A stretch of 64,000 bases of DNA from Marinobacterium lutimaris (GTDB lineage Bacteria > Pseudomonadota > Gammaproteobacteria > Pseudomonadales > Balneatricaceae), in contig NZ_FNVQ01000001.1 in NCBI RefSeq assembly GCF_900108065.1, positions 1,736,001 through 1,800,000 on the forward strand, in the 5' to 3' direction. Positions 59,069 to 62,128 of this stretch are shown one piece after another; position 1 is the stretch's first letter; each line of letters starts with the position of its first letter. A model generated the notes under the pieces. The model did no database searches, was not told the origin of the DNA, and worked only from the letters and a program-made list of their open reading frames with translations. Position numbers and translations under genes: made by a program.

Positions 59069-59405
59069 GGGCTGCTTCCTTCTGGGTCTTGGCGTCGTGG
59101 CACGGCTTGCAGATCGCCTCCAGGTTGTGGTCGTCGTCGGTGCCGCCTGATTGTTTGTTGATGATGTGGTCAACATGAACCGCGGGGGTTGTTCTGCCTG
59201 CTCGCTTGCACGGCTGGCACAGCCACCTGTCCCGCTTCATGATCGCGTCTCGCTTGCGGCGCCAAGGACGGCCTCCACGGCCTGAACCTTTACGACTGGC
59301 GAACGGCTTATGCAGGTGTTCGTGCTCTTCGCAGTAGCCGTGTGCGGCGGTTGTCTTGCCTGAGCATGCTGGCGCTCGGCACGGGCGTGGTGGTTTACTC
59401 GGCAT
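59043..59405 (-). CDS. HNH endonuclease next to terminase
   Basis: 120 aa. CRAPACSG and CEEH are possible zinc ligands, then the HNH core DRWLCQPCKRAG, HVDHIINKQSGG and HNLEAICKPCHDAKT. In HK97-like phages such a nuclease is needed with terminase for cos cutting. Confidence 0.92.
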   Translation of the reverse strand: MPSKPPRPCRAPACSGKTTAAHGYCEEHEHLHKPFASRKGSGRGGRPWRRKRDAIMKRDRWLCQPCKRAGRTTPAVHVDHIINKQSGGTDDDHNLEAICKPCHDAKTQKEAAHGRKQAGS

Positions 59406-59883
59406 TACCCCACTCCTTAACGCTCACTCGGTCAGCATTGCACTCTTGGAAGAACTGCTCGGCAGCGGCGATGTACTCTCCATACGTGGGCCGAGGTCTG
59501 GTAACGGTAGCGGATCCGTCCAGATTCTCGGGACTGGTTCCCGTCGAACCTGAGGCACGGTCTCTGAACCGAAACAGCCGGAGAGCAGCAGACTGAGGAA
59601 TAGGAGTGTTGAGGCAGTCGTTATCCGACCTGGCCGCTGCCAACTGTTCAGCGAGCGCATCGGCTTCCTGCTCAATCCATTGGCGATCGCGAGCGGTCGC
59701 AGCCAGCATCTGATCTGTCTGATCATACCGCGCGCGCTCCTCTCGGATAGTGTTGCTCAGATGGGTGATTGCCTGGTTGGCCTGATTAAGGTCAGACGAC
59801 AAGCTCACAGCTTTGTAGACAAAGAACCCGAGCCCAACAACAAGCGCAACAAAGATCGTTGTGATCGCAGTTCGGGCAGACAC
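59395..59883 (-). CDS. Inner-membrane spanin, Rz-like
   Basis: 162 aa with one N-terminal membrane segment (ITTIFVALVVGLGFFVYKAV) and a long coiled-coil periplasmic part (LNQANQAITHLSNTIREERA). It overlaps the HNH start by 11 bases and carries the Rz1 frame inside it, the typical spanin layout. Confidence 0.85.
   Translation of the reverse strand: MSARTAITTIFVALVVGLGFFVYKAVSLSSDLNQANQAITHLSNTIREERARYDQTDQMLAATARDRQWIEQEADALAEQLAAARSDNDCLNTPIPQSAALRLFRFRDRASGSTGTSPENLDGSATVTRPRPTYGEYIAAAEQFFQECNADRVSVKEWGNAE
59424..59660 (-). CDS. Outer-membrane spanin lipoprotein, Rz1-like, embedded in Rz
   Basis: In another frame inside Rz an ORF starting near 59660 (MRSLNSWQRPGR) has a lipoprotein signal with lipobox LLLSGC and a short Pro-rich mature part (VPQVRREPVPRIW, PLPLPDLGP). 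These are the marks of Rz1 o-spanins. Exact start uncertain. Confidence 0.8.
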   Translation of the reverse strand: MRSLNSWQRPGRITTASTLLFLSLLLSGCFGSETVPQVRREPVPRIWTDPLPLPDLGPRMESTSPLPSSSSKSAMLTE

Positions 59884-60164
59884 TACTCTGCGTCCATCTC
59901 GTTCGGATCAAGGCCCGCGTCATACATCTCAGCGCGGCGGGCATCTTCCCGGCGCTTGTAGTACCAGGTCATGAATGTGGTGATGCCAGCGAACAACACA
60001 CCGAAAGCGCCGGCGTTATCGTTGAGCGCCTGAAGAAACCAGTCGCCTACAACCAAGGTACCTGACGCGAGATACGCAATGATCGCCCAGACCTTGGTGG
60101 CGATGGGCTCGATGTAACGGTCCAGATCCACCACTGGCTCCTTAGATTTTCGTGTTCGCATCAT
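59883..60164 (-). CDS. Holin
   Basis: 93 aa with two membrane segments (about 25-45 and 50-70), a charged N-terminus (RTRKSKEPVVD) and a basic/acidic tail (YYKRREDARRAEM). Position between endolysin and spanins supports holin. Second Met at 60161 could give a dual start. Confidence 0.78.
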   Translation of the reverse strand: MMRTRKSKEPVVDLDRYIEPIATKVWAIIAYLASGTLVVGDWFLQALNDNAGAFGVLFAGITTFMTWYYKRREDARRAEMYDAGLDPNEMDAE

Positions 60165-60612
60165 TCAGACCCGACAAGCACAGTTCGCGCTCTTCAGCGC
60201 GACGCTTCACCAGCCCTGGCAGTTTGATCCCCTTCGCATAGACCCAACGTGTCAGCTCGTTGCATGCGCCCCGATGATCTCCGGCATTCAGTTTCCGCAG
60301 CAAGGTGCTGCTTTTAAAAGCACCAGTGCCGACGTTGTAGGCAAAGGATGTATATGCCGCTTGTTCCTCATGCGATAGCGGGACAGCAACGCTGTTGCTT
60401 ACCGCTAAACCAAACCGTATCGCTTCATCCAGCAGCAACGCATCGCATCGTTCAGGAGTCGTGGTATCGCCAATTTCTACCCCGTAGGTATAACCGAAGC
60501 AGATGGTAGGAACGCCAACAGGGTCTAAATACGCAACAGTGCGCATCCCCTCGAAGCTGGCTAATGCCGACAACACCAATGCCAGCCATGTCTTTTTGCT
60601 TGGACTGGTCAT
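60142..60612 (-). CDS. Endolysin, GH24 lysozyme with N-terminal signal-anchor
   Basis: 156 aa. Catalytic triad spacing E-8-D-5-T is seen in FEGMRTVAYLDPVGVPTICFGYT split as EGMRTVAYLD and PVGVPT. The first 20 residues (TWLALVLSALASF) are a weakly hydrophobic segment like SAR endolysins, which export without holin and become active on release. Holin overlaps its end by 23 bases. Confidence 0.9.
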   Translation of the reverse strand: MTSPSKKTWLALVLSALASFEGMRTVAYLDPVGVPTICFGYTYGVEIGDTTTPERCDALLLDEAIRFGLAVSNSVAVPLSHEEQAAYTSFAYNVGTGAFKSSTLLRKLNAGDHRGACNELTRWVYAKGIKLPGLVKRRAEERELCLSGLNDANTKI

Positions 60613-60830
60613 GATGAGCCTGTAATTGAAGATGGCACTCTCGCAGAGCCCGCGCCCAATCCACCGCTGTTGATGGCAGTTTCAAGAGTCATTCGTTTAG
60701 ATGGCTGCGGGGATTCCTCGCACTTACGTTCATCAACAGAACAAAGTGGTCAAGGGTCAGTACAACATGCTGCACACATCCCCTTATCGCCGACTGAAAA
60801 TGGCACGCATGCATGAGGTTTCAGGCAACA

Positions 60831-60853
60831 AAAAACCCCGCCGAGGCGAGGTT
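60831..60853 (-). terminator. Terminator between the candidate late regulator and lysis genes
   Basis: AACCTCGCC pairs with GGCGGGGTT (one U-G) and runs into TTTTTTG on the minus strand. It lies downstream of the LexA boxes and upstream of the lysozyme, the place of lambda tR'. The rest of the gap 60613-60969 shows no gene. Confidence 0.75.
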
Positions 60854-60923
60854 CTTTGGTTTGCGGTCACTAAGACCAAGATAACTGCAATGTAGCTTTC
60901 CCCCCGGAGATAATCAAGGGGTT

Positions 60924-60960
60924 TGCTGTATAAATTTACATGCTGTTCAAAAGTACAGTA
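60924..60960. promoter_or_regulatory. Two adjoining LexA (SOS) boxes at the late promoter position
   Basis: Box A, 60941-60960: TGCTGTTCAAAAGTACAGTA, a full CTGT-N8-ACAG match. Box B, 60924-60943: CTGT-ATAAATTT-ACAT, one base from consensus. They are 17 bases apart centre to centre. They lie 10 bases past the candidate late-regulator stop and before tR', so LexA would silence the lysis and virion operon directly. Confidence 0.75.
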
Positions 60961-60969
60961 TTAACAGCT

Positions 60970-61524
60970 TCACCCCATCGCCAGAGCACCGGCGTTAAGC
61001 TCAGTTTTAATCGCCTCATAATCATCCAGCGCCAGGAGTTCGAGAGCGACGATCTCGCGCGCCTTGGTCAAGCGACCCTCGTAGGCCTTCAGCGTCAAGC
61101 CGAAGTGCGCAGCGATCTGTGGCTGGGTCCAGTCGCGATAATATTCGTTGGCCAGAATGGCTACGGTATAGCGATCGGGCACCTTTCCTTTCGCCAGTAC
61201 AAATTGAAAACCGGAGCAACGAACACAGCAGTGATCATCATGAGCTACGCCGCGGCAGTCAGGACAAACGCTCGGGCGGCCAAACATGAAAATCGCCCGC
61301 TCGAACAGCGCATGCTGCTCACGAACAAAGAGGCTTTCATAGATCGCCTTATCGTTTGAGCGATCCATACCCGAACGCTCAGGAAGAAAGCCTTTGTGAT
61401 CACGCCACACCTGGATTGAATTCGGCTGGTGCCAGCCTGCAGGATCCGGCCCCTGCCTGACCCAACCGACATAAACCTCGACCAGCTTATTGATCCGTGC
61501 TCGCAGTGATTCTTCGATCGCCAT
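60970..61524 (-). CDS. Candidate late-gene regulator (Q-like) with zinc-finger segment
   Basis: 184 aa. Central Cys/His set CPDCRGVAHDDHCCVRCSG and a C-terminal HTH-like helix pair (WTQPQIAAHFGLTLKAYEGR). Its place, directly before the late promoter, terminator and lysis genes, is that of antiterminator Q. No firm family match from sequence alone. Confidence 0.6.
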   Translation of the reverse strand: MAIEESLRARINKLVEVYVGWVRQGPDPAGWHQPNSIQVWRDHKGFLPERSGMDRSNDKAIYESLFVREQHALFERAIFMFGRPSVCPDCRGVAHDDHCCVRCSGFQFVLAKGKVPDRYTVAILANEYYRDWTQPQIAAHFGLTLKAYEGRLTKAREIVALELLALDDYEAIKTELNAGALAMG

Positions 61525-61542
61525 ACTTCCTCCCCGTCCGCC

Positions 61543-61824
61543 TTAGGAATACTGATCAAGCACCCATTCATCCCAATCAAAATCGCATTCGTCATCGGTC
61601 CGACAGCACTCCACAACCTGCCCGCACTCAGGGCAGCAAGGCTCAAGAACCAAAACTTTTGTACCGGGCGGGAATCGCTTCGCATCGAGCGTAAGGATGT
61701 CCAAAAAGTCACCATCCATATCGCCCTCGCAGTACGTTCGCCACTGTGGCCGCATTTGGTCCGCGTTTTCACCGGCATAAAGGTCCGGCCTCATTTCGGC
61801 TTGCATCGTCTGGCTATGGCTCAT
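61543..61824 (-). CDS. Small phage protein with CxxC pairs
   Basis: 93 aa from the ATG at 61824 with GAGG upstream (10 codons before it in the open frame are unlikely). Contains EPCCPECGQVVECCRTDDECD, split over residues 65-85, a probable metal-binding knot. Unknown function. Confidence 0.6.
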   Translation of the reverse strand: MSHSQTMQAEMRPDLYAGENADQMRPQWRTYCEGDMDGDFLDILTLDAKRFPPGTKVLVLEPCCPECGQVVECCRTDDECDFDWDEWVLDQYS

Positions 61825-61834
61825 CAGAACATCC

Positions 61835-62128
61835 TCAATCAATCTTGCTGCCAAGGTGCAGAGTTGATGACCTCAGCTTGCGGTTTTCCGACTCCAGTTC
61901 ACTGTTCCGGCGGTCAAGGCTGTGCGCCAGTCGGGCTAGAATGTCGTTCGCCTGGTCTTCAGGGATCGGGTCGCCGTTCGGCATCTGCCACCCGAGCGCA
62001 TTACAGGCCGCGCAGGTGTACTCATGGACGGCACCCTGCCCGACGCCACCATTGCAGCTGGTGCAGGGCTTCAGCCCCGGGTGTTTGATCACCAGGTCCG
62101 GCCCCACCTTCTTAGCGACTCGCGACAT
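61835..62128 (-). CDS. DnaJ-like zinc-finger small phage protein
   Basis: 97 aa. CTSCNGGVGQGAVHEYTCAAC resembles one DnaJ CxxCxGxG unit in two parts, then a helical tail (DILARLAHSLDRRNSELES). Overlaps the resolvase end by 17 bases. Confidence 0.65.
   Translation of the reverse strand: MSRVAKKVGPDLVIKHPGLKPCTSCNGGVGQGAVHEYTCAACNALGWQMPNGDPIPEDQANDILARLAHSLDRRNSELESENRKLRSSTLHLGSKID

Follow-up and report, generated by a model that had tools for sequence, protein, structure and literature searches.

LexA-type boxes in a fixed register before an inferred lambda-type late promoter in a Marinobacterium lutimaris prophage and most of the relatives examined

Two LexA-type boxes lie side by side directly before the inferred late promoter of a prophage in Marinobacterium lutimaris, and a site of the same kind recurs at the same place in most of the related phages that we examined. 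Going by sequence comparison, we consider it probable (about 70%) that these boxes are operators at which host LexA represses the late promoter, and that the late genes would need both a Q-like activator and the clearing of LexA. The retention of the site in most relatives suggests that lysis may be tied directly to the host SOS response. The window, by which we mean the whole stretch of DNA that was analysed, is 64,000 nucleotides long.

Results

Two boxes between a Q-like gene and the lysis genes

The initial annotation had described one perfect and one near-perfect SOS box at the position of lambda pR', and both parts of that description hold. In lambda, pR' sits between Q and the lysis genes. 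Here, reading leftward, a 184-aa Q-like gene is followed by the boxes, a terminator-like hairpin, and genes for an endolysin, a holin, and an Rz-like spanin. The features, in window coordinates, are as follows.

60970 to 61524, minus strand: gene called Q-like by position, 184 aa, with CxxC pairs and with helices near the C-terminus that weakly resemble sigma region 4
60943 to 60958, no strand assigned: box 2 (distal), CTGTTCAAAAGTACAG, 15.9 bits; its 17-bp spacing is found in 6 of 13 promoters
60926 to 60941, no strand assigned: box 1 (proximal), CTGTATAAATTTACAT on the plus strand and ATGTAAATTTATACAG on the minus strand, 20.6 bits; register common to 12 other promoters
60902 to 60921, no strand assigned: imperfect palindrome on the boundary of -35 and spacer, candidate late-activator site; 4 of 6 outer pairs here
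60912 to 60917, minus strand: inferred late-promoter -35, TTGATT, from by-eye alignment with homologous leaders
60889 to 60894, minus strand: inferred late-promoter -10, TACATT, from by-eye alignment, 17 bp from the -35
60865 to 60877, no strand assigned: inverted repeat GGTC-N5-GACC just past the inferred start (by eye)
60823 to 60855, minus strand: intrinsic-terminator-like hairpin with T-run, tR'-like
60142 to 60612, minus strand: endolysin (phage lysozyme), by Pfam and PHROGs profiles
59883 to 60164, minus strand: holin, by PHROGs; Pfam below cut-off
59395 to 59883, minus strand: Rz-like spanin, by profile match

Both boxes have the form of the CTGT-N8-ACAG palindrome of gammaproteobacterial LexA operators, like the boxes at the host's own lexA and recA genes. 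Box 2 fits it with zero mismatches and box 1 with one (ACAT for ACAG), and the two are spaced 17 bp start to start. Two boxes adjoin host lexA, and on the other strand both end in ACAT; the deviation of box 1 is therefore one that the host itself shows. The host recA box is CTGTATACCTGACCAG. A search of the host genome for the LexA DNA-binding domain gave one match. Box 2 is the only exact CTGT-N8-ACAG in the window, and 0.60 exact boxes are expected per shuffled window, with at least one in 45 of 100 shuffles. A lone perfect box is thus commonplace by chance, and the weight of the case is comparative. The 20-base E. coli LexA consensus, allowed up to three mismatches, gave no match.

For scoring, we used a weight matrix built from 12 host sites, namely two at lexA, one at recA, one that precedes an ORF judged by eye to be UmuD-like, and a hand-picked set of eight AT-rich sites whose genes are mostly unassigned; 8 of the 12 have no tie to a known SOS gene. 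In a scan of 83 kb (the window and its right flank), box 1 ranked first and box 2 third. The best scores in 30 shuffled sequences ran from 9.3 to 16.7 bits; box 1 exceeded all 30 and box 2 exceeded 29. Elsewhere in the same host genome (L035:1535-1567), there is a second LexA-like pair, CTGTTCAAGCATACAG and CTGTATAAATACACAT, also spaced by 17 bp.

The surrounding prophage

The endolysin is 75% identical to one from M. litorale, the sole named match among the genome_contigs matches listed. G002, which belongs to the same genus as the host, also has an endolysin at 75%, and the ORFs after it look holin- and Rz-like by eye. A DNA search of phage records with 59400-62000 gave six records, with likeness confined to about 130 bases inside the endolysin gene. 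The initial annotation had proposed looking to the right for a CI-type repressor, and one is present there, with HTH and S24 peptidase domains (L002:4330-5202), along with a P22-type Cro and, beside a tRNA-Val gene, an integrase whose arm-binding domain is of lambda type. A C5 cytosine methyltransferase gene lies between repressor and integrase (L002:10455-12386), and the early region carries an Ant/Rha-type antirepressor gene (L002:1484-2275). The boxes were also considered as CI or Cro operators; this was rejected, as the interval between cI and cro has unlike, CAAGCATGCTTG-type repeats.

The 184-aa protein is putatively Q-like, a name given by its position only. No Q family in Pfam or PHROGs matched it, and a fold search with a model of mean pLDDT 78.1 gave no match at E 0.001 or better, with partial matches resembling sigma region 4. 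The weak likeness of its C-terminal part to that region appears both by profile and by fold. A search of genome_contigs found no match to this protein and one of IMG/VR matched only the same prophage, while 8 of 116 family genomes had matches.

The inferred core promoter lies directly downstream of the boxes without overlapping them. Box 1 ends 8 bp before the -35, and the predicted start is about 51 and 68 bp from the two box centres. A simple LexA operator would not usually be placed upstream of the core promoter. We also considered a promoter that overlaps the boxes and rejected it; no good hexamer pair was seen by eye, and a simple consensus scan of 60600-61560 found no promoter. The candidate activator palindrome starts 4 bp from box 1. 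Inverted repeats, similar to or different from that at 60865-60877, occupy the position past the start in some relatives (by eye). With a promoter, inferred by comparison, and a terminator-like hairpin between a putative late regulator gene and the lysis genes, the arrangement is that of a lambda-type, Q-dependent late region.

Homologous late promoters

Relatives were collected by endolysin homology from IMG/VR and from 116 genomes of the family. IMG/VR gave 17 endolysin loci; L043, L045, and L050 were dropped as repeats of the window, G002, and G061, and the more distant L051-L059, which stand outside the promoter set, showed no box with an AT-rich core and up to one mismatch in the 1.5 kb that precede the endolysin. 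The family genomes gave 17 endolysin places in 14 of the 116, from which 12 promoters were read; L071-L074 were left out, and a scan of L077 found no box. Altogether, 17 distinct late promoters were read, 16 of them complete. The incomplete one, L044, is cut by a contig end and is excluded from the 16; its remaining 12 letters fit the box. The promoter cores were chosen by eye, and for the atypical cores of G036 and G063b the boxes were already known when the choice was made.

Two hexamers 17 bp apart (by eye) characterise these promoters, the first starting with TTG in 15 of 17 and the second reading TACnnT in 11 of 17. Of the 17 leaders, 16 have a terminator-like hairpin in the 190 bases that follow. 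In 13 of the 16 complete promoters, a site that scores at least 10 bits with the host matrix stops 7 or 8 bp short of the -35 (7 bp in eight cases, 8 bp in five), against a background for such sites of 2.05e-4 per position over 170,642 positions. A second site lies exactly 17 bp further upstream in 6 of the 13 (the window, G061, two prophages of G063, G036, and G022), and no other site of at least 10 bits occurs between offsets -60 and +119. Counted independently of the matrix, the proximal site is an exact CTGT-N8-ACAG in 7 of 16. The site is absent from the remaining 3 of the 16, namely L047, G071, and a second prophage of the same host. The endolysin of this second prophage (L233, C18 near 1643628) is 55% related to that of the window; its late promoter has no box, and its early-type site, of the kind described below, is weak (13.3 bits). 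Colicin genes carry double LexA boxes, and the comparison with them that had been drawn for the window is apt in kind, with both single and double boxes found among the relatives.

Across the 13 promoters, mean pairwise identity is 0.71 over the box and 0.85 over its outer eight bases, compared with 0.67 for each of the -35 and -10 hexamers. Outside these elements, the two upstream stretches reach 0.37 and 0.25, the gap 0.34, the spacer 0.39, and the downstream stretch 0.38. No element of the 13 promoters is better conserved than the box, which has not simply been carried along with its surroundings. This pattern bears on the possibility that LexA binds with little repression. In that case, the AT-rich boxes would chiefly be contacted by the polymerase alpha subunits, as an upstream promoter element, and LexA would be a minor modulator or a sink. 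The proximal box has its centre about 51 bp before the predicted start, in the region where such elements lie, and the box cores are indeed AT-rich. However, it is the outer CTGT and ACAG that are best conserved rather than the AT core, and we regard this explanation as distinctly unlikely.

The genes upstream of the promoter are less constant. The neighbouring gene differs between relatives, and a Q-like gene lies within 3 kb in 8 of 16, at varying distances; L047 offered only 121 bases for this count, and some of the Q-like query proteins stem from these same phages. The boxes might instead serve the neighbouring gene or a divergent promoter upstream, and in G029 a divergent gene does begin just past the box. 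Yet, whichever gene a relative has next to the box, the box keeps its spacing of 7-8 bp from the late -35, which makes such a role very unlikely.

The palindromes could also be the binding site of the Q-like late activator, with a superficial likeness to LexA boxes. In favour of this, the boxes lie beside the late promoter at a fixed distance, and the Q-like gene abuts them in the window and in G002. The motif, however, stays constant though the upstream genes differ, with a Q-like gene nearby in only half of the promoters, and it equals the host's lexA, recA, and umuD-like boxes. A different palindrome, at the boundary of -35 and spacer, behaves as would be expected of the site of an activator that changes its specificity, in that it keeps its symmetry and changes its letters. 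At least four of its six outer pairs are present in 12 of 17 promoters, and the mean is 3.65 pairs, compared with 2.76 at the best of 33 other centres, although the palindrome had been spotted by eye before it was tested. An element that keeps its place but not its sequence is what a phage-specific activator would have as its site, whereas the LexA-type box, which keeps both, suits a host factor. Consequently, we judge it unlikely that the boxes are the activator site, for which the palindrome at the -35 is the likelier candidate. Its fixed place and changing letters would make it a natural data set on how late activators change their DNA specificity.

Pattern searches in larger collections recovered few further members of this group. 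In IMG/VR, a box followed by a promoter with a gap of 3-12 was found in 29 stretches, 10 of them with a gap of 7 or 8 (duplicates included); three (L088, L090, and L099) belong to this group, the others having been judged by eye only. Paired perfect boxes occur in at least 120 IMG/VR stretches. A strict form of the box-plus-promoter pattern matched 7 of 390 genomes of the order, only two of which (G061 and G070) represent this group. G321 and G340 share one identical site, which in G340 stands before a RecA-like ORF (by eye), and the matches in G140, G471, and G483 were not counted as late promoters. In L078 and L096 from IMG/VR, a LexA-like box and promoter-like hexamers precede an adenine methyltransferase-like gene (by eye), with lysis-like ORFs beyond.

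A counterpart in the early region

Between boxes 1 and 2 in the ranking of the 83 kb stands CTGTATAAATTCACAT, at L002:4121-4136 (67121-67136 in the window frame), with 17.4 bits, more than in any of the 30 shuffled sequences. Behind cro there is a hairpin with a T-run; the site lies 15 bases past this run, and 10 bases separate it from an ATG. Sites of this type, scoring 10.8-17.4 bits and placed 14-15 bases past the T-run behind a cro-like ORF, were found in 6 of 8 early regions in a count made without controls. Besides the prophage of the window, they are in G029, G033, G070, G071, and the second host prophage; no such site was recognised in the early regions of G061 and G036. An ORF starts 8-10 bases beyond the site in four of the six, and none does so in G029 and G071. 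A tentative reading, which we think possible though less probable than its contrary, is that these phages have two conserved LexA gates, one at the terminator after cro and one at the late promoter, each beside an antitermination checkpoint. On this reading, host LexA would time the lytic programme like a clock, and even with CI gone the delayed-early and late genes would have to wait until LexA was cleared by SOS or titrated by the phage copies as they replicate.

Discussion

Proposed role of the boxes

In lambda, SOS acts on the prophage via CI, and Q then governs the late promoter. For the prophage studied here, we infer a similar sequence of events with LexA added to it. LexA dimers would occupy the two adjoining boxes immediately before the late promoter, where they may hinder RNA polymerase by way of its alpha subunits and its contact with the -35, and probably also the late activator, whose candidate site is so close by. 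Upon damage, CI would be inactivated, and the early genes would make the Q-like protein, which would carry transcription past the terminator. LexA would meanwhile be cleared by SOS or titrated on many phage copies. Such a lock could keep a leaky lysogen from lysing and tie the timing of lysis to SOS. If this is true, lysis timing would be read from the damage state of the host, and perhaps from phage copy number.

The initial annotation had suggested that direct LexA control of the lysis operon would bypass or back up the phage repressor. Direct control at the late promoter is supported by the comparison, in that 13 of 16 complete promoters have a host-type site in one register. The bypass, in which loss of LexA alone turns on lysis without the phage programme, is a different matter. 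The boxes do stand at the late promoter, as it would demand, but a terminator-like hairpin precedes the lysis genes, a Q-like gene lies upstream, and a CI-type repressor is present. With that hairpin and that gene in place, the main product expected when only LexA is lost is a short leader RNA, and we give the bypass very little credence. Backing up the phage repressor would be better described as adding a lock, since SOS would have two tasks, the inactivation of CI and the removal of LexA. Of the two readings, an additional LexA lock on a late promoter of lambda type is more likely than a bypass.

Comparison with known systems

The order of late regulator gene, promoter, terminator-like hairpin, and lysis genes is like that of the pR'/Q region of lambda. 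Unlike in lambda, the regulator here matches no known Q family (Pfam, PHROGs), and lambda is not known to have a LexA box at its late promoter.

A close precedent is GIL01, a phage of Bacillus thuringiensis. Its late promoter P3 has tandem LexA boxes and needs a phage activator as well (PMC6182141). Both temperate phages have tandem LexA-type boxes at a late promoter, recognised here by sequence alone. GIL01 has no dedicated phage repressor and uses LexA together with the phage protein gp7; its boxes lie downstream of the -35, and its activator, gp6, is a homologue of LexA. In contrast, the present prophage has a CI-type repressor, a P22-type Cro, a terminator, and a Q-like gene, and its boxes are upstream of the inferred -35.

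Other prophages are known to respond to LexA at different points. For example, in Gifsy, 186, and N15, host LexA directly controls an antirepressor (PMC3121763); a prophage promoter would be under host LexA in both cases, but theirs is that of an antirepressor and not the late promoter. LexA binding to endolysin promoters of ExPEC prophages has been reported by EMSA. The printed boxes fit CTGT-N8-ACAG poorly, and the passages considered do not assign them a conserved position with respect to a late promoter of Q type (PMC9621596). The passages considered from PMC7556043, PMC8136144, and PMC12700426 hold nothing on a LexA box at a lambda-type late promoter, nor is a conserved one described in what was covered of the open-access literature, a scope outside which most subscription journals fall. 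While direct LexA control of prophage genes and tandem boxes at the GIL01 late promoter are already known, a conserved LexA-type box at a lambda-type late promoter appears, within that scope, to be new.
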